Below the pieces are notes generated by a model. It saw only the letters and a program-made list of their open reading frames with translations, ran no database searches and was not told the origin of the DNA. The translations under genes were made by a program, and so were the position numbers. A stretch of 45,762 nt of DNA. Origin: Sedimentisphaerales bacterium. GTDB taxonomy: Bacteria > Planctomycetota > Phycisphaerae > Sedimentisphaerales > SM23-30. This document shows, piece by piece, positions 2 to 39,189 of the stretch. The stretch covers positions 1 to 45,762 of the forward strand of contig JANQJS010000008.1 of NCBI GenBank assembly GCA_028281535.1, in the 5' to 3' direction. Positions within the stretch are counted from its first letter, which is position 1, and the number at the start of each line of letters is the position of its first letter.

Positions 2-1204
2 GATGTGACCTTGAATCAAGAGATTAGCAAGGCGGATATTGATGCGGGTAATCTGGTCTTTATTCCTGTGGCGAATGCAAATGGTAGCAGCTATGATACG
101 TTTGGCTTCCAGGTGCATGACGGTACGACCTATGCTGCTGCGGCCGATACGATGACGATTGATGTGACGGCAGTCAACGATGCGCCTACGGCGACGAATA
201 ATACGGTGACGACGAATGAAGATACGAACCATACCTTTGCTGCGGGTGATTTTAACTTTAGTGATATTGATGGTGACTCCTTAAGTAAAGTTAAAATTAC
301 CACACTGGAAGGTGTGGGGTCCTTGAAATTAAGTGGTGCCGATGTCACACTAAATCAAGAAATTAGTAAAGCCGATATTGATGCTGGCAATCTGGTATTT
401 ATCCCTGTTACGAATGGTAATGGTGCAAGTTACGATACGTTTGGCTTCCAGGTGCATGATGGCACGACCTATGCAGCGGCTACTGATACGATGACGATTG
501 ATGTCACGGCAGTCAACGATGCGCCTACGGCGACGAATAATACGGTGACGACGAATGAAGATACGAACCACACATTTGTGGCCGGAGATTTTAACTTTAG
601 TGATATTGATGGTGATTCTCTAAGTAAAGTGAAAATTACGACCTTGGAAGGTGTAGGTTCCCTTAAATTAAGTGGTGCCGATGTCACACTAAATCAAGAA
701 ATTAGTAAAGCCGATATTGATGCCGGTAATTTAGTCTTTATTCCTGTAGCAAATGGCAATGGTGCTGGTTACGACACCTTTGGTTTCCAGGTTCATGATG
801 GCACGACCTATGCGGCTGCCGCAGATACGATGACCGTGGATGTCACTGCCGTCAATGATGCCCCCACCGCATCAAATAATACGGTGACGACCAATGAAGA
901 TACCAATTATACGTTAACCGCTGGTGACTTTAACTACAGCGATACAGAGGGTAGTGCGCTTAGCAAAGTGAAAATCACGACGCTTGAAGGGGTTGGTGCC
1001 TTAAAATTAAGTGGTGCCGACGTCACGCTAAATCAAGAAATAAGTAAGGCCGATATTGATGCTGGAAATCTGGTCTTTATCCCAGTAGCCGATGCCAATG
1101 GTGCTAGCTACGATAGCTTTGGTTTCAAAGTTCACGATGGTACAGAATATTCTGCCGCAGCTTATACTGCTACCGTGGATGTCACTGCCGTCAATGATGC
1201 TCCA
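2..1204 (+). repeat. A-module block 1 (A1 partial to A4)
   Basis: In-frame tandem array with a period near 339 nt encoding NEDT/ADIDAGNL/VNDAP cadherin-like modules. Copies are almost identical at DNA level: a 59-nt stretch at 326-384 recurs without change at 665-723. Confidence 0.85.
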
Positions 1205-4200
1205 GTCTTAGATAATGCTCAAAGTCCGACACTGACTGCTATCAACGAAGATAATACAACCTCCGCTGGTGATACTGTTGCTGATATTGTCGTCAATGGT
1301 TCAATTACTGACGCAGATGGAGGTGCTGTTGAAGCTATCGCAATCACAGCAGTTGATGATACCAACGGTACTTGGCAATACAAAATTGGTGCTGGCGCCT
1401 GGACAGATATCGATGATGGTTCTTTAGCAGGTAATCACTCACTTTTACTTGATAGTACAGATAATATTCGTTTTGTTCCGGATGCCGATTGGAACGGCGG
1501 GGCAACCTTTACATTTCGAGCTTGGGATAAAACCGCTGGTACTGCCGGTAATTATGTTGATACAACAACGAATGGTAACGCCACGCCATACAGTTCTGCA
1601 ACCGATACTGCAGCTATTACTGTCAATGCGGTCAATGATGCCCCTGTTTTGGATAACGCTCAAAGTCCTACGTTGACAACTATTAACGAAGATGACACAA
1701 CCTCTGCGGGTGATACCGTTGCTGACATTGTTGTTAATGGTTCAATTACTGATGCGGATACTGCTACAGAAGCAATTGCGGTTACCGCTGTTGATAATAC
1801 GAATGGTACCTGGCAATACAAAATTGGTGTGGGTGCCTGGACAAACATTGATGATGGCTCACTCGATAATGACCATGCGTTATTATTAGATAGTGCAGAT
1901 AATATTCGATTTGTACCTAACGCCAGTTGGAATGGTACTGCAAATATCACCTTCCGGGCTTGGGATACCACCGCAGGTGCAGCAGGCAACTATGTCGATA
2001 CAACGACGAATGGTACAACAACACCTTACAGTACAGCTACAGATACCGCACAAATTACTGTTTCGGCGGTCAATGATGCTCCTGTACTAGATAATGCTCA
2101 AAGTCCAACATTAACAGCCATCAATGAAGATAATACTACTTCTTCTGGTGATACTGTTGGAGCCATTGTGGTCGATGGATCGATTACTGATAACGATGGT
2201 GCTGTTGAAGCGATTGCGATTACAGCAGTGGATGATGCCAATGGGTCCTGGCAATATAAAATTGGTGCTGGCGCCTGGACTAATATCGATGATGGTTCTT
2301 TAGCTGGCAATCATTCACTTTTACTCGACAGTGCAGATAATATTCGCTTTGTCCCAGATGCAAACTGGAATGGTTCTGCCAATTTCACCTTCCGAGCATG
2401 GGACAAGAGTGCGGGGAGTGCAGGCACTTATGTAGATACAACGACCAATGGCACAACCACGCCATATAGTACCGCAACAGATACCGCAGCGATTACGGTG
2501 AATGCTGTCAATGATGCACCGACTGCAGCCAATAATACCGTCACGACAAATGAAGATACCACATATGTTCTAACTGCAGCAGATTTTAACTACAGTGATA
2601 TCGATGTTGACACGATGAGTAAAGTCAAAATTACAACATTAGAAGGTGTCGGTTCTCTAAAATATAACGGTACAGATGTCACATTAAATCAAGAAATCAC
2701 CAAAGCGGATATCGATGCTGGAAAATTAACCTTTATTCCTGTAGCTGATGCAAATGGTGCTGGCTATGATACATTTGGCTTCAAAGTGCACGATGGCACT
2801 GTAGAAAGTACCGCGGCATATACCATGACCGTCGATGTCACGGCGGTCAATGATGCACCTACTGCAACAAACAACACTGTTGCAACGAACGAAGATACCA
2901 ATTACACATTTGCTGCCGGCGATTTCAATTTTGCCGATGTGGACGCTGGTGATACCTTAAGTAAAGTTAAAATTACCACACTGGAAGGTGTCGGTGCCTT
3001 GAAATTAAGCGGTGCCGATGTGACGCTTAATCAGGAAATATCGAAAGCCGATATTGATGCCGGTAATTTAGTCTTTATTCCTGTGGGTAATGGTAACGGT
3101 GCAGGCTATGATACGTTTGGTTTCCAGGTCCATGATGGCACGACATATGCTGCCGCAGCTGATACGATGACGGTGGATGTGAATGCCACCAATGACGCGC
3201 CAACAGCAGCAAATCAAACAGTAACGACTAATGAAGATACGACATATACCTTTGCGGCGGGTGATTTTAACTTTTCAGATATCGATGCAGGGGACGCCCT
3301 AAGTAAAGTCAAGATCACTACCTTAGAAGGCGTAGGGGCGCTAAAATTAAATGGTGCTGACGTTACCTTAAATCAGGAAATAACCAAGGCGGATATTGAT
3401 GCTGGTAAATTAACATTTATTCCTGTCGGCGATGCCAATGGTGCAAGCTATGACAGCTTTGGATTTAAAGTCAACGATGGTACTGTTGAAAGTACCGCGG
3501 CATATACCATGACCGTCGATGTCACGGCTGTCAATGATGCACCTACCGCAACAAATAACACTGTTGCGACGAACGAAGATACCAATTACACTTTTGCTGC
3601 CGGCGATTTCAATTTTGCCGATGTGGACGCAGGTGATACGTTAAGTAAAGTTAAAATTACCACACTGGAAGGTGTCGGTTCCTTGAAATTAAGCGGTGCT
3701 GATGTTACTCTTAATCAGGAAATATCGAAAGCCGATATTGATGCAGGTAATCTGGTCTTTATTCCAACGGCACAAACGAATGGTGCTAGTTACGATACGT
3801 TTGGCTTCCAGGTGCATGATGGAACAACCTATGCTGCGGCCGCTGATACCATGACAATCGATGTTAATGCAGTTAATGACGCACCCGTTCTGGATAATGC
3901 TCAGAGTCCAACACTGACCGCAATCAATGAGGACAATACCACGTCAAGTGGTGACACAGTGGCTTCAATAGTTGTTGATGGTTCTATAACAGATGCAGAT
4001 ACAGCTGTCGAAGCAATTGCTATTACCGCAGTCGATGATACCAACGGTACCTGGCAATACAAAATCGGTGCCGGTGCCTGGACGAACATTGACGATGGTT
4101 CAATTGGTGCTAATCATGCATTGCTTTTAGATAGTACTGACAATATTCGTTTCGTACCTGATGCTGATTATACGGGCAATGCAACATTTACATTCCGAGC

Positions 4201-7200
4201 CTGGGATAAAACTTCAGGAACAGCAGGCAACTACGCTGACACAACGACCAATGGGAATGCCACTCCATATAGTACAGCAACAGATACAGCACAAATTCAA
4301 GTCAGTGCCGTTAATGATGCCCCAGTATTGGATAACACGCAAAGCCCAACATTGATTACTATTGCAGAAGACAATACCACATCCGGTGGTACAACGGTTG
4401 CGGGAATCGTGGTTGATGGTTCGATTACCGATGTGGATGGTACCGCTGTTGAAGCGATTGCAGTGACCGCCGTTGATAATACCAACGGTACCTGGCAATA
4501 TAAAATCGGTGCCGGCGCCTGGACGAACATTAATGATGGTTCACTAGGTAATGATCATGCATTGCTCTTGGATAGTGCTGACAACATTCGATTCGTACCA
4601 GATGCCAGCTGGAACGGTACTGCAAATATCACCTTCCGTGCATGGGATGCTACATCAGGTATAGCGGGTACCTATGCCGACACAACAACCAATGGTACAA
4701 CAACGCCCTATAGTACCGCGACAGATACCGCTCAAATTACTGTTAGTGCAGTCAATGATGCGCCGGTATTGGATAACGCACAGTCACCAATTCTTGCGGA
4801 CATTACAGAAGATAATTTCACTTCAGGGGGTGACACCGTTGGTACAATCGTTGTCAATGGTTCCATTACAGATGTTGATGGTGCTATTGAAGCAATTGCA
4901 GTGACCGCAGTAGATAATACCAATGGGTCCTGGCAATATAAAATCGGTGCGGGCGCCTGGACCAATATTGATGATGGCTCACTAGCAGATAATCATGCCT
5001 TGTTATTAGATAGTGCAGATAATATTCGTTTTGTCCCTGATGCAAACTACAACGGCACGGCAGATTTTACCTTCCGCGCCTGGGATAAGAGTGCAGGTAC
5101 AGCGGGTAATTATGCTGATACCTCAACCAATGGCGGAACAACGCCATATAGTACCACAACCGATACCGCTCAAATTCAAATCAATGCGGTTAACGATGCA
5201 CCAACTTTGGATAATACTCAAAGCCCAACGCTAAATACTATTAGCGAAGACAATACAACATCGAGTGGAAATACTATTGGTAGTATTGTGGTCGATGGTT
5301 CAATTACAGATATTGATTTCGCTGTCGAAGCAATTGCCATTACCGCGGTAGATGATACCAATGGGTCCTGGCAATATAAAATTGGTGCTGGTGCCTGGAC
5401 AAACGTTGATGATGGTTCATTAGGCGGCAATCATGCCTTATTACTTGATTCTGTCGATAATATTCGTTTCGTTCCTGATGCAGATTATAATGGCACTGCG
5501 AATTTTACTTTCCGTGCATGGGATAAAAGCAGTGGTTCAACTGGAACCTATGCCGATACCACAACCAATGGTGGAACGACGCCTTATAGTTCTGCAACGG
5601 ACACTGCCCAGATTACGATTAATCCTGTCAATGATGCTCCTGTATTAGATAATACGCAGAGTCCGACACTAACAGCGATTAATGAAGAAAATACAACCTC
5701 CGGCGGCGATACCGTCTCTGATATTGTCGTTAATGGTTCGATTACCGATGCGGATGGCGCAGCTGTCGAAGCAATTGCAGTAACCTCGGTGGATGACACC
5801 AATGGGTCCTGGCAATATAAAATTGGTGCTGGAGCTTGGACAGATATTGATGATGGTTCATTAGGAAGCAATCACGCACTAATGCTTGATAGTACCGATA
5901 ATATTCGTTTTGTGCCAGATGCTAATTTCAATGGAACTGCAACTTTTACCTTCCGTGGTTGGGACAAGAGTACCGGTTCTGCTGGATCATATGCAGATAC
6001 GACAACGAACGGAACAACGACGCCATATAGTACCGCAACCGATACCGCATCCATTACCATAAATCCAATTCAAGATAAACCAACGGCCTCTGATCAAACC
6101 ATTGCGTTTGATGAAGATACTATTTATACCTTCACGGCATCAGACTTTAACTTTGCTGATGTTGATTCAGGCGATACGTTAAGTAAGGTTAAAATTACAT
6201 CGCTGGAAGGGATTGGCGATCTTAAACTAAATGGTGCAGATGTTATATTAAATCAGGAAATCACCAAGGCAGATATTGATGCCGGCCTGTTAACATTTGA
6301 ACCGCTTGCTGGTGAAGATGGAGACAATTATGACTCCTTTGACTTCAAAGTGAACGATGGCACAGATTACAGTGACCTTGATTATACCATTAACTTCAAT
6401 GTCATTAATACCAACGATCGTCCAGAAGCGTTGGATGATACTTATTATGTTAATGAAGATACCACGCTCAATGGAACAAGTGTCATATCCAATGATACTG
6501 ATCCTGACAACGATGTTTTAACCATCCAAAGTCATACGCAACCAGAGCATGGCACGTTGACTGTTAATGTCGATGGTTCATTTGTCTATATACCAGATCC
6601 AAATTTTTCTGGCACAGACATGTTCTCGTATTTTGTTGTTGATGCTGACAACGAAATTGATGGAGGACTCGTTTATATCCATGTCCAAGCCGTCAATGAC
6701 GCACCAGTTGCCAATAATGATTCAGCATCAGGCGATGAAGATACTGCTATAGTCACGACAAATGTTCTGGCAAATGATAGTGATCCAGAAGGTGACACGC
6801 TATCCATTGATAGCTTTTCCCAGCCCACCAATGGTTCTGTTGTCTATAATGGTGATGGCACGTTCTCTTATACGCCAAACAACAATTATTATGGTAATGA
6901 TAGCTTCACCTACACGGTGTCAGATGGTAATGGTGGTTTAACTACAGCGACAATTGATTTAACCATAAATCCTGTAGATGATGCGCCGGTTGTCAATAAT
7001 GATTATGCTTCAGGTGATGAAGATACCACGATTGTGACAACAAATGTACTATCGAATGATGTTGACCCGGAAGGTGATGTGTTAACGATAGATAGTTACA
7101 CGCAGCCAACTCATGGTACGATTATATATAATGGTGATGGCACTTTTTCCTATACGCCGAATGCTGATTTCTTTGGTAGTGATAGCATAACCTATGATGT

Positions 7201-8494
7201 AGTAGATAGTGGTGGCAATAAATCAACCGCAACCCTAATCTTTAATGTCAATTCAGTTAATGATGCACCTATTGCAAAAAATGACTCGGCAACAGGTGAT
7301 GAAGATACTGTAATCTTGACACCTAACGTCTTAGAAAATGATACAGACCCTGAAGATCAGGTACTTGGTGTAGATAGCTTTACGCAGCCGACTAATGGAA
7401 CGGTCGCTTATAATGGCGATGGTACGTTCTCTTATACACCAAATAGCAACTATAATGGATCGGATAGTTTTACTTACACTATTGTTGATAGCGATGGTGC
7501 ACCATCAACGGCAACGATTGACTTGACGGTTGTTTCGGTAAATGATTTGCCGCAAGCGAATCCGGATAGTACCACCGGTGAGGAAAATTATCCACAAACG
7601 ACAACCAATGTTCTGGCGAATGATTCAGATATTGATAGTGACAGTCTATCTGTTTATGGATTCACCCAACCAGAAAATGGTTTTGTTGATTACAATGACG
7701 ATGGTACATTTACTTATATTCCATTAAAAGGGTATGTCGGCGAAGACTCCTATACCTACACGATTAGTGATGGCGATGGTGGTTATTCTACCACAACCAT
7801 CAATGTGACAGTTACTGAAGGTAAGCCAGAAGATAAGTCTGTCGAAACACCCATCGAAACGCCAGATCCTGTGGAAACAGCCGGACCAAAACCTGGCCCA
7901 TCAATCGAAAAACCAACAATCGAGCCTGGACCAAGTCCTGATGATGATTTAATCGTTTTGGATCCAACCACGGATGAAGTGGTCGTGCCAGTAGATGATA
8001 CGGATGATGAAAAATTAGATGAACTTAAGAAATTTGCTGAAGAACTCGAAAGTGCTGAGGAGCAAAACATTATACTGAAAAATCAAATTAATGATATTCA
8101 GTTAGATGTCTTATCCACATTGGCAGAAGATGAAAAATATAAAATCCCAACGGAATTTTATAGTGAATCTTTTGAAGATACCTTTGAAGAGGTTAACCTG
8201 GATTGGGTACCAAAACTACATGGTGATCATGATCAAAATGCTAGTTTAGCCGATGAGTTCAATCGCAAGAAAATTGAGTCGAGTGAAGATCTTAAATTAG
8301 ATACGGATGAATCCATTGAAGCTCTAGAAGATGCTGCTACTGAAAACAAAAAGTCACAAGCAGTCATGGCGAATCTGTGGAGTTTAGTACGTAACTTTGT
8401 TGGTGTGGTAGACGATCGTACAGAACAGCAGCAACGTGATGATGACAATAATGCAAATCGAAAAACAAAAGGCTCAAGTCGCTATAAAAAATAG
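2..8494 (+). CDS. Giant cadherin-like tandem-repeat protein, 5'-partial
   Basis: The reading frame is open from the first bases. The GTG at position 5 is the Val of a repeat (D-V-T-L-N-Q), so it is not the real start and the N-terminus lies upstream. The 2,830 visible residues consist of three module types: about 113-aa 'A' modules (NEDT... SKVKITTLEGVG... ADIDAGNLVFIPV... VNDAP; nine, the first partial), about 146-aa 'B' modules (LDNAQSPTL... GTWQYKIGAGAW... NIRFVPDA... TFRAWD; eight) and five C-terminal 93-aa 'C' modules (NVLANDSDPEGD... GDGTFSYTP..., the tandem-95/Big_9-like type). Order is A4-B3-A4-B5-A1-C5. After about residue 2605 come a Pro/Glu/Asp-rich linker, an acidic helical region with possible coiled coil (LKKFAEELESAEEQN) and a basic end. 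No RTX repeats, LPXTG or clear membrane anchor are visible. Families of this kind are Ca2+-binding surface or secreted adhesins; that role is inferred. It is convergent with the sigma factor gene, with no clear terminator in the 38-nt gap. Confidence 0.85.
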   Translation, partial: DVTLNQEISKADIDAGNLVFIPVANANGSSYDTFGFQVHDGTTYAAAADTMTIDVTAVNDAPTATNNTVTTNEDTNHTFAAGDFNFSDIDGDSLSKVKITTLEGVGSLKLSGADVTLNQEISKADIDAGNLVFIPVTNGNGASYDTFGFQVHDGTTYAAATDTMTIDVTAVNDAPTATNNTVTTNEDTNHTFVAGDFNFSDIDGDSLSKVKITTLEGVGSLKLSGADVTLNQEISKADIDAGNLVFIPVANGNGAGYDTFGFQVHDGTTYAAAADTMTVDVTAVNDAPTASNNTVTTNEDTNYTLTAGDFNYSDTEGSALSKVKITTLEGVGALKLSGADVTLNQEISKADIDAGNLVFIPVADANGASYDSFGFKVHDGTEYSAAAYTATVDVTAVNDAPVLDNAQSPTLTAINEDNTTSAGDTVADIVVNGSITDADGGAVEAIAITAVDDTNGTWQYKIGAGAWTDIDDGSLAGNHSLLLDSTDNIRFVPDADWNGGATFTFRAWDKTAGTAGNYVDTTTNGNATPYSSATDTAAITVNAVNDAPVLDNAQSPTLTTINEDDTTSAGDTVADIVVNGSITDADTATEAIAVTAVDNTNGTWQYKIGVGAWTNIDDGSLDNDHALLLDSADNIRFVPNASWNGTANITFRAWDTTAGAAGNYVDTTTNGTTTPYSTATDTAQITVSAVNDAPVLDNAQSPTLTAINEDNTTSSGDTVGAIVVDGSITDNDGAVEAIAITAVDDANGSWQYKIGAGAWTNIDDGSLAGNHSLLLDSADNIRFVPDANWNGSANFTFRAWDKSAGSAGTYVDTTTNGTTTPYSTATDTAAITVNAVNDAPTAANNTVTTNEDTTYVLTAADFNYSDIDVDTMSKVKITTLEGVGSLKYNGTDVTLNQEITKADIDAGKLTFIPVADANGAGYDTFGFKVHDGTVESTAAYTMTVDVTAVNDAPTATNNTVATNEDTNYTFAAGDFNFADVDAGDTLSKVKITTLEGVGALKLSGADVTLNQEISKADIDAGNLVFIPVGNGNGAGYDTFGFQVHDGTTYAAAADTMTVDVNATNDAPTAANQTVTTNEDTTYTFAAGDFNFSDIDAGDALSKVKITTLEGVGALKLNGADVTLNQEITKADIDAGKLTFIPVGDANGASYDSFGFKVNDGTVESTAAYTMTVDVTAVNDAPTATNNTVATNEDTNYTFAAGDFNFADVDAGDTLSKVKITTLEGVGSLKLSGADVTLNQEISKADIDAGNLVFIPTAQTNGASYDTFGFQVHDGTTYAAAADTMTIDVNAVNDAPVLDNAQSPTLTAINEDNTTSSGDTVASIVVDGSITDADTAVEAIAITAVDDTNGTWQYKIGAGAWTNIDDGSIGANHALLLDSTDNIRFVPDADYTGNATFTFRAWDKTSGTAGNYADTTTNGNATPYSTATDTAQIQVSAVNDAPVLDNTQSPTLITIAEDNTTSGGTTVAGIVVDGSITDVDGTAVEAIAVTAVDNTNGTWQYKIGAGAWTNINDGSLGNDHALLLDSADNIRFVPDASWNGTANITFRAWDATSGIAGTYADTTTNGTTTPYSTATDTAQITVSAVNDAPVLDNAQSPILADITEDNFTSGGDTVGTIVVNGSITDVDGAIEAIAVTAVDNTNGSWQYKIGAGAWTNIDDGSLADNHALLLDSADNIRFVPDANYNGTADFTFRAWDKSAGTAGNYADTSTNGGTTPYSTTTDTAQIQINAVNDAPTLDNTQSPTLNTISEDNTTSSGNTIGSIVVDGSITDIDFAVEAIAITAVDDTNGSWQYKIGAGAWTNVDDGSLGGNHALLLDSVDNIRFVPDADYNGTANFTFRAWDKSSGSTGTYADTTTNGGTTPYSSATDTAQITINPVNDAPVLDNTQSPTLTAINEENTTSGGDTVSDIVVNGSITDADGAAVEAIAVTSVDDTNGSWQYKIGAGAWTDIDDGSLGSNHALMLDSTDNIRFVPDANFNGTATFTFRGWDKSTGSAGSYADTTTNGTTTPYSTATDTASITINPIQDKPTASDQTIAFDEDTIYTFTASDFNFADVDSGDTLSKVKITSLEGIGDLKLNGADVILNQEITKADIDAGLLTFEPLAGEDGDNYDSFDFKVNDGTDYSDLDYTINFNVINTNDRPEALDDTYYVNEDTTLNGTSVISNDTDPDNDVLTIQSHTQPEHGTLTVNVDGSFVYIPDPNFSGTDMFSYFVVDADNEIDGGLVYIHVQAVNDAPVANNDSASGDEDTAIVTTNVLANDSDPEGDTLSIDSFSQPTNGSVVYNGDGTFSYTPNNNYYGNDSFTYTVSDGNGGLTTATIDLTINPVDDAPVVNNDYASGDEDTTIVTTNVLSNDVDPEGDVLTIDSYTQPTHGTIIYNGDGTFSYTPNADFFGSDSITYDVVDSGGNKSTATLIFNVNSVNDAPIAKNDSATGDEDTVILTPNVLENDTDPEDQVLGVDSFTQPTNGTVAYNGDGTFSYTPNSNYNGSDSFTYTIVDSDGAPSTATIDLTVVSVNDLPQANPDSTTGEENYPQTTTNVLANDSDIDSDSLSVYGFTQPENGFVDYNDDGTFTYIPLKGYVGEDSYTYTISDGDGGYSTTTINVTVTEGKPEDKSVETPIETPDPVETAGPKPGPSIEKPTIEPGPSPDDDLIVLDPTTDEVVVPVDDTDDEKLDELKKFAEELESAEEQNIILKNQINDIQLDVLSTLAEDEKYKIPTEFYSESFEDTFEEVNLDWVPKLHGDHDQNASLADEFNRKKIESSEDLKLDTDESIEALEDAATENKKSQAVMANLWSLVRNFVGVVDDRTEQQQRDDDNNANRKTKGSSRYKK
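1205..2521 (+). repeat. B-module block 1 (B1 to B3)
   Basis: Three in-frame copies, period about 439 nt, beginning V-L-D-N-A-Q-S-P and carrying the GTWQYKIG and NIRFVP signatures. They are inserted between two A blocks at the VNDAP module junction. Confidence 0.8.
2522..3886 (+). repeat. A-module block 2 (A5 to A8)
   Basis: Four in-frame A modules of about 341 nt. The first halves of A6 (from about 2860) and A8 (from about 3540) are nearly identical at nucleotide level, which points to recent duplication or gene conversion. Confidence 0.8.
3887..6079 (+). repeat. B-module block 2 (B4 to B8)
   Basis: Five in-frame copies of the roughly 439-nt B module. All keep the SWQYKIGAGAW/TWQYKIGAGAW core and the RFVPDA motif. 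The modules vary mainly in the 'SITDxD' loop and the residues before VEAIA. Confidence 0.8.
6080..6424 (+). repeat. Single divergent A module (A9)
   Basis: One A-type module (FDEDTIYTFTASDFNFADVD) that is more diverged than the other copies. It sits between B block 2 and the C modules, and is preceded by NPIQDKP instead of AVNDAP. Confidence 0.7.
6425..7819 (+). repeat. C-module block (five tandem-95/Big_9-like repeats)
   Basis: Five in-frame repeats of about 279 nt with the signatures NVLANDSDPEGD, QPTNG and GDGTFSYTPN. They are much more diverged at DNA level than the A and B modules, so they look like the older membrane-proximal or C-terminal part of the protein. Confidence 0.8.
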
Positions 8495-28205: not shown

Positions 28206-28862
28206 TTACCGCATAATCCATTGGCGGTTTTTGTACAATAAGACACGTTTGTCCGGGTTGTATTTGTCGCCGGAAACGGTGTATTCTAACATTAAAGTTT
28301 TTTGAAGCAAGACCTCTTTTGGTTTATTTGTTTTTGGGTTAATAAGTACTGGATGGTCTATACTTACGGTTTCATTGCTAAAGCCGCTTAAAAATATTTT
28401 TACAGCACTGGCTTTTGGGTCGAAATCTTCAAATACTGCAACTGAGTCTCGGGCATAATCTTTTCCTTGGAGTATTTTACCCGTTATAAGCTTTTGAGGT
28501 TCTAATAGTGGAATCTTGCGTTCATACCTATCACGTATAGCTTCGAAAACATCTTTTTTGATGTTTGTACCAGCAATAGTTGATTGGAATGTGTCAGTAA
28601 ATATTTCAAATTGAGGATAGAAAGCTATATCTTTATCCATGTAATTCGTGACAGTGAATGGTAAATACCAATAATTTTTATAAGTATTCTTGATGGAATC
28701 TTTGACTGTAATGAGTTCTGGCTCGCCATGTAATTCAATTTCGAGTTGCCAGTTACCATAGTGCAGAACTTTAGATGGTTCTGGGGCAGAGTAGCCCTGA
28801 TTGATGAGCAATCCAATGCAAAGGGAAATTCCTAGAAATCCAATAATTGTAAGTTTTTTCAT
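28206..28862 (-). CDS. Exported protein of unknown function
   Basis: The 218-aa protein begins with a clear signal sequence (MKKLTIIGFLGISLCIGLLI, probable cleavage near the Ala in GYSA). The mature part is rich in beta-strand-like sequence, with 'WQLEIELHGEPELITVKD', 'YWYLPFTVTNYMDKDIAFYP' and 'KIFLSGFSNETVSIDHPVLI', which suggests a beta-sandwich fold. No known motif or catalytic residue set is recognised. GGAG lies about 10 nt before the ATG. It ends 40 nt before rpmA and may be co-transcribed with it. A link to ribosome function should not be assumed from position alone. Confidence 0.65.
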   Translation of the reverse strand: MKKLTIIGFLGISLCIGLLINQGYSAPEPSKVLHYGNWQLEIELHGEPELITVKDSIKNTYKNYWYLPFTVTNYMDKDIAFYPQFEIFTDTFQSTIAGTNIKKDVFEAIRDRYERKIPLLEPQKLITGKILQGKDYARDSVAVFEDFDPKASAVKIFLSGFSNETVSIDHPVLINPKTNKPKEVLLQKTLMLEYTVSGDKYNPDKRVLLYKNRQWIMR

Positions 28863-29281
28863 ATTAGGTAGTCTCCGCTATGCAGGAAGGTTAATATTCA
28901 CAAATAAGGTATTATGCATAGCTTAAAACATTATTAGACTCGATTTCAGAGCAAATTACAATGATTTTTTAGTGAAAAATAATGGAAGTTGGTGCAGATC
29001 CATGGGGTTGGATTATGTTGATTCTCGGCAACAAAATCTAAATAGTGTTCATTTAGTTCATATAGACGTATGTAATTAATTTACAAGTAGATAATGACAT
29101 TTATTGCAGAGCGTTGTTGTTGATATTCAACATTTGGGCTGGCCAGCACTGTAGAGGAGTTTAGGAAAATATTAAAAGGTTACCAGCGTAAACCATCATG
29201 AAATAGGGTCTTGTAATAGACGGTTTGTAAAGTGTTTCTGGCAAATGAATAATGGCATCAGATTTGCGTATAATATCCATG

Positions 29282-29358: not shown

Positions 29359-29364
29359 TATAAT
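29359..29364 (+). promoter_or_regulatory. Consensus -10 box of the ncRNA candidate
   Basis: A perfect TATAAT seven nt before the proposed RNA start (GGATTCTC, 29371). No -35 consensus is visible at 16-18 nt, so an activator or an alternative sigma contact may be needed. Confidence 0.5.
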
Positions 29365-29370
29365 GATGAA

Positions 29371-29544
29371 GGATTCTCTGCCCGCACTCCTCGGAGGGAA
29401 TTGCGTGTATCATGAATCAAACTTCATCCAGAAATTGCGAATGGTGTGGACCTAGGTAGGGAGTTCCTGAGGAGGTTGAGGAGAAAACTTCCACACATTC
29501 GTTTAAAAATTAAGAGATTGGAGTTTCTCCAGTCTCTTTTTTTT
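29371..29544 (+). ncRNA. Candidate structured ncRNA, about 170 nt, unassigned (6S-like possible)
   Basis: The segment lies between a perfect -10 box and a strong intrinsic terminator and has no ORF. Two alternative folds can be drawn. In the first, the ends form a long rod: TTCTC (29374-29378) with GAGAA (29480-29485 region), CTCCTC (29387-29392) with GAGGAG (29470-29475), AGGGAA with TTCCT, and an apical hairpin ATGAA-TCAAAC-TTCAT (29412-29427). In the second, CGAATGGTGTGGA (29438-29450) pairs with TCCACACATTCG (29490-29501) with one bulge. The rod with internal loops and the length are like 6S RNA, which inhibits RNA polymerase, but no diagnostic 6S sequence could be confirmed. It could also be a cis-acting leader of the downstream gene, although the terminator ends 131 nt before that start. 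Confidence 0.6.
29512..29544 (+). terminator. Intrinsic terminator of the ncRNA candidate
   Basis: AAGAGATTGGAG pairs with CTCCAGTCTCTT (12 bp with one G-U pair, 3-nt loop), and the stem runs directly into a tract of T. Confidence 0.9.
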
Positions 29545-29675
29545 ATCTGATTTCGGGGGATATTACGATAGAATGATGATTGGGTGTGGTTTTGTTTTTA
29601 GGAAAACCATCTTGACAGATACCCAGAATAATTATATACATAACGTTTTGTATTTTATCATTTTAAGGAAAAAGC

Positions 29676-30512
29676 ATGAAAGCAGAAGAACGTCATAAAC
29701 TAAAAGAAAATGAATTAGATAGCCTCTTAAAAGATGTACCTGGTGCTTTGCGTAATTTTTTCTTCGGATCACAAATATCCAAGATAATTACATCGCTGCT
29801 GGTCATTATGCTGCTGTTTTATTCATTAAAAAGCATTATCACAACTGCACAAGATTCAGCTCGTCAAAAGCAAGCATCTGAGTTGGCATCATTGATGACA
29901 GAAATATCTAATCTCAAAGTCGAAGCCATAAAGGGCGCTGAGTCTGCTGAGGTTGATAAATATTTAACTTCATCTAAAAGTTTAGTTACATCATTCGCTA
30001 AATTAGCGGATAGCAGCAAGTCTGACGGATTTGAAATTACTGCAATGTTGAATCATGCAAAATCATTACGATCTCAATTGTTATACTCAGGAACCCAAAT
30101 AGAAACTGACCAGAGAGATAATATTTTAGAGCAAATTTCAGCGATATACACAAAGCTGCAAAGTAAATACAAATCTAACGCTATTGCTCAAGGGGCTGCA
30201 AAGCTGGGGTTGGCAGTTATTGCTGAGGATAGGGCTGATTACGCTCAAGCTAAGAAGCTATACCAAGAAATTATTGATGCAGGTACTGATAAACTAGTTG
30301 GAACTCCTTATGCTTTGCAGGCGAAATTAAGATTAGCAAAAATTGATGAGTCTTCATCGCCGCTCGATTTTAAGTGGGTTGAGCCAGTGGCTGAAGCAGT
30401 TCCAGTCACGCCTGACACTAATACCTCTGCAGTGGATCAACCTGCCGATAGTGATACACCTGTCGATTTGAGCTCATTTGAATTTGTTGAACCTGCTGAA
30501 GAAAGTAACTGA
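29676..30512 (+). CDS. YfgM-like membrane-anchored TPR protein
   Basis: The 278-aa protein has a charged cytosolic N-terminus (MKAEERHKLKENELDSLL), one transmembrane helix (about 34-52, 'SKIITSLLVIMLLFYSLKSI') and a helical extracytoplasmic domain with a coiled-coil-prone segment (about 60-125) and a TPR-like pair (about 168-230, 'AAKLGLAVIAEDRADYAQAK'). The C-terminus is Pro/Asp/Glu-rich and low in complexity. This layout matches planctomycete YfgM-type proteins; E. coli YfgM works with PpiD at the SecYEG translocon. That role is only inferred here. The RluD-family gene follows after 30 nt and is probably in the same unit. Confidence 0.65.
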   Translation: MKAEERHKLKENELDSLLKDVPGALRNFFFGSQISKIITSLLVIMLLFYSLKSIITTAQDSARQKQASELASLMTEISNLKVEAIKGAESAEVDKYLTSSKSLVTSFAKLADSSKSDGFEITAMLNHAKSLRSQLLYSGTQIETDQRDNILEQISAIYTKLQSKYKSNAIAQGAAKLGLAVIAEDRADYAQAKKLYQEIIDAGTDKLVGTPYALQAKLRLAKIDESSSPLDFKWVEPVAEAVPVTPDTNTSAVDQPADSDTPVDLSSFEFVEPAEESN

Positions 30513-38643: not shown

Positions 38644-38741
38644 TCGTTTCCATACTCAAACTCTATTCGAAGGAATCGTCCTATCCATCATCTTTATAAT
38701 TCGATAAACTTATACATGATAGAAACTTAATCCATACTTGA

Positions 38742-38771
38742 TTGACACTTCATGTTAAATTATAATATACA
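38742..38771 (+). promoter_or_regulatory. Predicted promoter of the tmRNA gene
   Basis: A perfect -35 TTGACA (38742-38747) is followed after 18 nt by TATACA (38766-38771). A perfect TATAAT overlaps at 38761-38766, but its 13-nt spacing is too short. The mature 5' end (38812) is about 40 nt downstream, consistent with RNase P trimming. Confidence 0.55.
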
Positions 38772-38811
38772 CAATAAGCAAGTCCTCTCATTGGTTATTA
38801 TGGGGGCGAAA

Positions 38812-39153
38812 GGCTTCGACCGGACGGGTTGAGGTTTGGGTTGCGTGTCCAGGATCGGTAGTTGGCCTGGTTAATCATCTACCGAAAATAATAAATGCTA
38901 ACAATCAGTTACGCATGGCCGCTTAATTAAGCGACCCGTTTGCACCGCGACGTCTACTAGTGGATGCAAACGACGATAGTAGACTGGCTTAAGCGGGCTG
39001 CTCGGCCCTTCTTAAGTGAGAAACAGTCGAGCTAGCCAAAATGATATCCTGTTGGTCGGAGATTATGGCGGCGAAACTTAAATGACACAACTATGCACGT
39101 AGATGCCCTTTCTGAAACGTCACGGGACCGGGGTTCGATTCCCCGCGCCTCCA
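38812..39153 (+). ncRNA. ssrA: Transfer-messenger RNA (tmRNA), one-piece
   Basis: The RNA rescues stalled ribosomes by trans-translation with SmpB. The 5' end GGGGGCGAAAGGCTTCGACC pairs with the 3' acceptor strand CGCCTCC (39146-39152), and a T arm CGGGG-TTCGATT-CCCCG precedes it. The discriminator base is A39153; CCA is not encoded and must be added. The resume codon is GCT 38897 and the frame reads A-N-N-Q-L-R-M-A-A then TAA (38924-38926), so the added tag is (A)ANNQLRMAA. The stop codon lies in a hairpin (CGCTTAATTAAGCG), as is usual for tmRNA. Its length, 342 nt, is normal and there is no permuted two-piece arrangement. Confidence 0.97.
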
Positions 39154-39189
39154 TTCTCCGTCGCTCATCAGAGATGAGCTATGGAGAAT
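39153..39189 (+). terminator. Hairpin directly behind the tmRNA
   Basis: ATTCTCC (39153-39159) pairs with GGAGAAT (39183-39189), and inside it GCTCATC (39163-39169) pairs with GATGAGC (39173-39179) around an AGA loop. The stem starts at the discriminator base. No T-run follows, so it may be a processing or stability element and not a true terminator. Confidence 0.5.

Follow-up and report, generated by a model that had tools for sequence, protein, structure and literature searches.

A candidate orphan small RNA in a divergent intergenic gap of a Sedimentisphaerales genome

The closest described systems to the locus analysed here are the intergenic, trans-encoded small RNAs of bacteria, 6S RNA (RF00013), and CsrA-titrating decoys such as CsrB, RsmY and RsmZ. 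Small RNAs of the first kind occupy intergenic units of their own, and small RNAs commonly have no homologues at the family level. 6S-type RNA forms a long rod with a central bubble, closed by a stem between its 5' and 3' ends, while the decoys carry repeated GGA motifs that sequester CsrA. A limited search of titles and abstracts found no dedicated study of small RNAs in Phycisphaerae. Set against these systems, positions 29371 to 29544 are best read as a putative orphan, lineage-specific small RNA of about 170 nt, transcribed independently from an intergenic gap, a reading to which we give a probability of about 0.55.

The genome (G000) comprises 4.44 Mb in 67 contigs, one of which (G000:C61) is the window, that is, the whole stretch of 45,762 nucleotides that was analysed. 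The candidate is present as a single copy in the genome and sits between two genes that point away from each other, in a gap of 813 bp. No ORF of at least 60 aa is found in this gap, in agreement with the earlier note, which had seen no ORF in the candidate. The product of the downstream gene has no match in Pfam or NCBIfam, and the next gene after it encodes a pseudouridine synthase of the RluA/RluD family. Elsewhere in the window, at 5-8494 (+), lies the gene of a giant protein of 2829 aa made of tandem cadherin-like / bacterial Ig repeats; at the DNA level its repeats measure 339 and 438 bases and match at 74 to 83%. The features of the locus are as follows.

28206-28862 (-): upstream gene for a hypothetical protein, divergent
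29359-29364 (+): putative -10 box TATAAT, without a recognisable -35 (read from the sequence; hexamer at chance frequency)
29371-29544 (+): candidate small non-coding RNA (terminator in a divergent gap, G+C island; 5' end inferred, 3' end from the terminator)
29371-29382 (+): 5' arm of the alternative fold, pairing with 29455-29466
29372-29418 (+): 5' hairpin GATTC...GAATC with a CGGA tetraloop (MFE and centroid folds; z -1.3 alone)
29437-29502 (+): P2 hairpin GCGAATG-GTGTGGA / TCCACAC-ATTCGT with a GAGGAG-rich loop (folding; z -2.6)
29455-29466 (+): 3' arm of the alternative fold, pairing with 29371-29382
29512-29545 (+): intrinsic terminator with a 12-bp stem, a TTT loop and a T-run (terminator scan, fold against shuffles)
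29612-29640 (+): TTGACA-N17-TATACA, a separate element resembling a promoter, for the downstream gene (read from the sequence, after the terminator)
29676-30512 (+): downstream gene ('TPR29'), whose product is probably a membrane protein

The textbook terminator described in the earlier note is real. The sequence 29512-29538, with 12 pairs, a triloop and T8, has a fold z of -6.5 against shuffles, and it ranks first in the window for stem length and uninterrupted T-run among terminator-like sites; one such site was observed in the region for 0.3 expected. Because both flanking genes face away from the gap, which holds no co-directional upstream gene, no annotated upstream gene can end at this terminator. 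The candidate therefore has a terminator of its own, and the transcript most likely begins inside the gap. In addition, the 138 bases that precede the terminator form a G+C island, with 47% against 31% on both flanks (binomial P 7e-5, a value that is somewhat optimistic since the bounds of the island were picked in the earlier note).

The runner-up among the terminator sites of the window (27862-27838, minus strand) is a separate matter. This strong intrinsic terminator is located between rpmA (L27) and an obg-like GTPase gene, within what would be a single operon, and could be either an attenuator or a sign that the second gene has a promoter of its own.

At the other end of the candidate, a perfect -10 box followed by a G start had been put forward. 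Both elements are present, and G29371 is seven bases past the end of TATAAT, which is the correct spacing. The box is weak as evidence of a promoter, however: the window contains 50 copies of TATAAT for 53 expected from shuffles, no -35 is recognisable upstream of the box at 29359-29364, and a promoter scan of the region does not include the site in its list. Two short reading frames begin within the candidate, one of 16 aa at GTG 29405, with an SD-like GGAGGG 6-7 nt upstream, and one of 34 aa at GTG 29446, which extends into the terminator. We considered their translation and set it aside, as its support is limited to the SD-like GGAGGG.

The proposal of about 170 nt of pairing-rich sequence fails for the body taken as a whole. 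The body without terminator, 29371-29508, has a fold z of about -0.25 relative to dinucleotide shuffles, and the z of -2.39 obtained for the full stretch is due to its 3' part (P2 and terminator, z -4.5). P2 folds better than 98.6% of shuffles (1.4% match it), whereas 12% of shuffles are as good as the 5' hairpin. The pairing of GTGTGGA with TCCACAC, also pointed out in the earlier note, does exist and extends to the whole of P2, but its supposed rival, a long rod formed by CTCCTC and GAGGAG, is not the competitor: its pair probability is about 0.001 or less, and forcing it costs at least 3.8 kcal/mol. The alternative fold that comes near is the one joining 29371-29382 to 29455-29466, at -36.5 kcal/mol for -37.1 kcal/mol in the best fold, a gap of 0.6 kcal/mol. 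Since 13.5% of shuffles have an alternative as near in energy, the idea of two competing folds able to switch is not supported statistically.

The question arises as to whether relatives carry the same RNA. The candidate matches itself only, both by BLASTN in 161 genomes of the order and with a single-sequence covariance model (R1) in 148 of the order's genomes and the syntenic loci. Phage and plasmid collections contain nothing similar. BLASTN against 59 relatives gave short matches only, three of which (G021, G029 and G039) have 29420-29450 in common; they were examined as possible related RNAs, and reading their surroundings gave no sign of this, the match in G021 falling within an aminotransferase-like reading frame.

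The relatives retrieved via the neighbouring gene are metagenome assemblies of Sedimentisphaerales / Phycisphaerae, and in two of them, G005 (locus L036) and G007 (at -231), the same gap contains a strong terminator. In G005, a very stable structured stretch (L036:3160-3345, contig G005:C41; fold z -5.7) ends in this way; it has no match in Rfam and, using a single-sequence model, no homologue in 13 family genomes. We rejected it as a homologue of the candidate, given alignment P values of 0.06 to 0.47 and a model (R2) that matches itself only; it is either a positional coincidence or a relative that is no longer recognisable. One may speculate that, across the family, this gap houses a structured RNA that evolves fast. 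The window, G005 and G007 would then hold versions of one RNA too diverged for their sequences to be recognised as related, and this RNA might be a global regulator, for instance a decoy for CsrA in planctomycetes, but we regard this as very improbable. Independently of these stretches, a string of 16 identical bases, TCAACATTTGGGCTGG, is found at 29127-29142 of the window and at L036:2883-2898, in the gaps that precede the orthologues in G000 and G005; the similarity does not extend beyond it.

Several other explanations of the locus were weighed. The best guess of the earlier note was 6S RNA, and this was wrong. The 6S gene of the genome is on another contig (G000:C20:207307-207487), where its score of 52.9 bits, for a gathering score of 46.4 bits, makes it the sole match above that threshold in the genome; it carries its own TATAAT box and terminator, as read from the sequence, and 12 of the 13 family genomes have a single recognisable 6S gene. 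Likewise, SRP RNA (RF00169) is encoded by one copy at G000:C23:82540-82637, also above the gathering score. The candidate matches neither covariance model, and its MFE, centroid and alternative folds consist of separate hairpins, the 5' end pairing locally or with 29455-29466, without the 6S-type rod, closing stem and central bubble. A primary 6S or SRP gene at this site is thus refuted by the location of the true genes, and, with size and intergenic position as the points in its favour, the identity of the candidate with either RNA is virtually excluded. That no family can be assigned was, in contrast, borne out: an Rfam search at the gathering cut-off, and at E values up to 10, gave nothing near any cut-off for the candidate. 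The only match at gathering score in the window is a tmRNA gene at 38802-39156 (+), with 157 bits, preceded by TTGATT-N17-TATAAT at 38738-38766. The earlier note had also considered a riboswitch-like leader. The RNA would then be a cis-acting leader or attenuator of 29676-30512 that switches between two folds, possibly with a leader peptide of 16 codons starting at GTG 29405. It is on the same strand, with its terminator about 130 bp upstream of the start codon; the SD-like motif before GTG 29405 and the closeness of the two folds fit this scheme, and GGAGAAA (29480-29486) could pair with the UUUCUCC of the terminator, as read from the sequence. However, the element TTGACA-N17-TATACA stands between the terminator and the gene (the promoter scan omits it, as it accepts only -10 hexamers that end in T). 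By eye, the orthologues in G004, G005, G009, G001 and G010 have TTGAC(A/T) just upstream and a GA-rich, -10-like hexamer 17 bases on, and neither sequence searches nor the R1 model found the candidate near orthologues in the relatives (genomes and syntenic loci). Because the downstream gene has this separate promoter-like element, with equivalents in relatives lacking the candidate, a cis-acting leader is improbable, and the competition between folds that it calls for is within chance.

Alternatively, the RNA may titrate CsrA in the manner of CsrB or RsmY/Z, its GGA motifs acting as decoys. The genome has one CsrA gene (G000:C45:250607-250762, 91.5 bits), and the 138-nt body contains 7 GGA for 4.3 in dinucleotide shuffles, a marginal excess that 4.9% of shuffles reach. 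One of these motifs lies open in the tetraloop (CGGA) that caps the 5' hairpin, and two more are partly exposed, in the GAGGAG stretches. Several others are paired, however, the A(N)GGA form is not significantly enriched (4 for 2.1 in shuffles, P 0.17), Rfam shows no match to CsrB or RsmX/Y/Z, and CsrA is present in 12 of the 13 family genomes while the candidate is present in one. A decoy role is therefore possible, though the odds appear to be well against it. A last scenario is that the locus has no function as RNA: the intergenic sequence would be fortuitous or in decay, and its terminator spurious. The body folding close to its shuffles, the promoter at chance level and the want of a homologue among the order's 161 genomes are all consistent with it. 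Yet a strong terminator coincides with a G+C island, and the genomes compared do not include a second member of the genus, which makes the lack of conservation weak evidence; we hold this scenario to be unlikely.

We therefore favour the orphan small RNA, for which the following mode of action can be proposed. Transcription would start within the gap, with 29371 as the probable neighbourhood of the first base, and would stop at the Rho-independent terminator 29512-29545. The RNA would then most likely act in trans, its unpaired stretches forming short duplexes with mRNAs; the segment 29419-29436, within CAAACUUCAUCCAGAAAUUG, is the longest that is mostly unpaired, and together with the GAGGAG-rich loop of P2 it may provide the pairing sites. 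Its transcription, the precise position of the 5' end and the action in trans are what we infer from the DNA. No long complementarity to the candidate is listed elsewhere in the genome, the 11-nt anti-seed GGATGAAGTTT has three sites, including the candidate gene itself, which is no more than the control, and a duplex scan against the gene starts of the window gave no convincing outlier (lowest z -2.7 among the best eight).

The main value of the analysis is negative, in that the 6S and SRP readings are removed by locating the true genes and the riboswitch reading is made unlikely. Compared with known systems, the candidate is like 6S RNA in its length, its intergenic site and the terminator at its end, but it has no match to the 6S model and no single rod with central bubble and closing stem. 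It is like CsrB, RsmY and RsmZ in having several GGA motifs, one of them in a hairpin loop, in a genome that encodes CsrA; it departs from them in that few of these motifs are clearly in loops, A(N)GGA is not significantly above shuffles and Rfam gives no match. Provided that it is expressed, it would add to the small RNAs confined to single lineages, here within the planctomycete group Phycisphaerae. From the class of intergenic, trans-encoded bacterial small RNAs it differs in belonging to no sequence family and in being known here from sequence alone, and it resembles that class in being an intergenic unit of its own, in the range of about 100 to 200 nt, with hairpins and a Rho-independent terminator.
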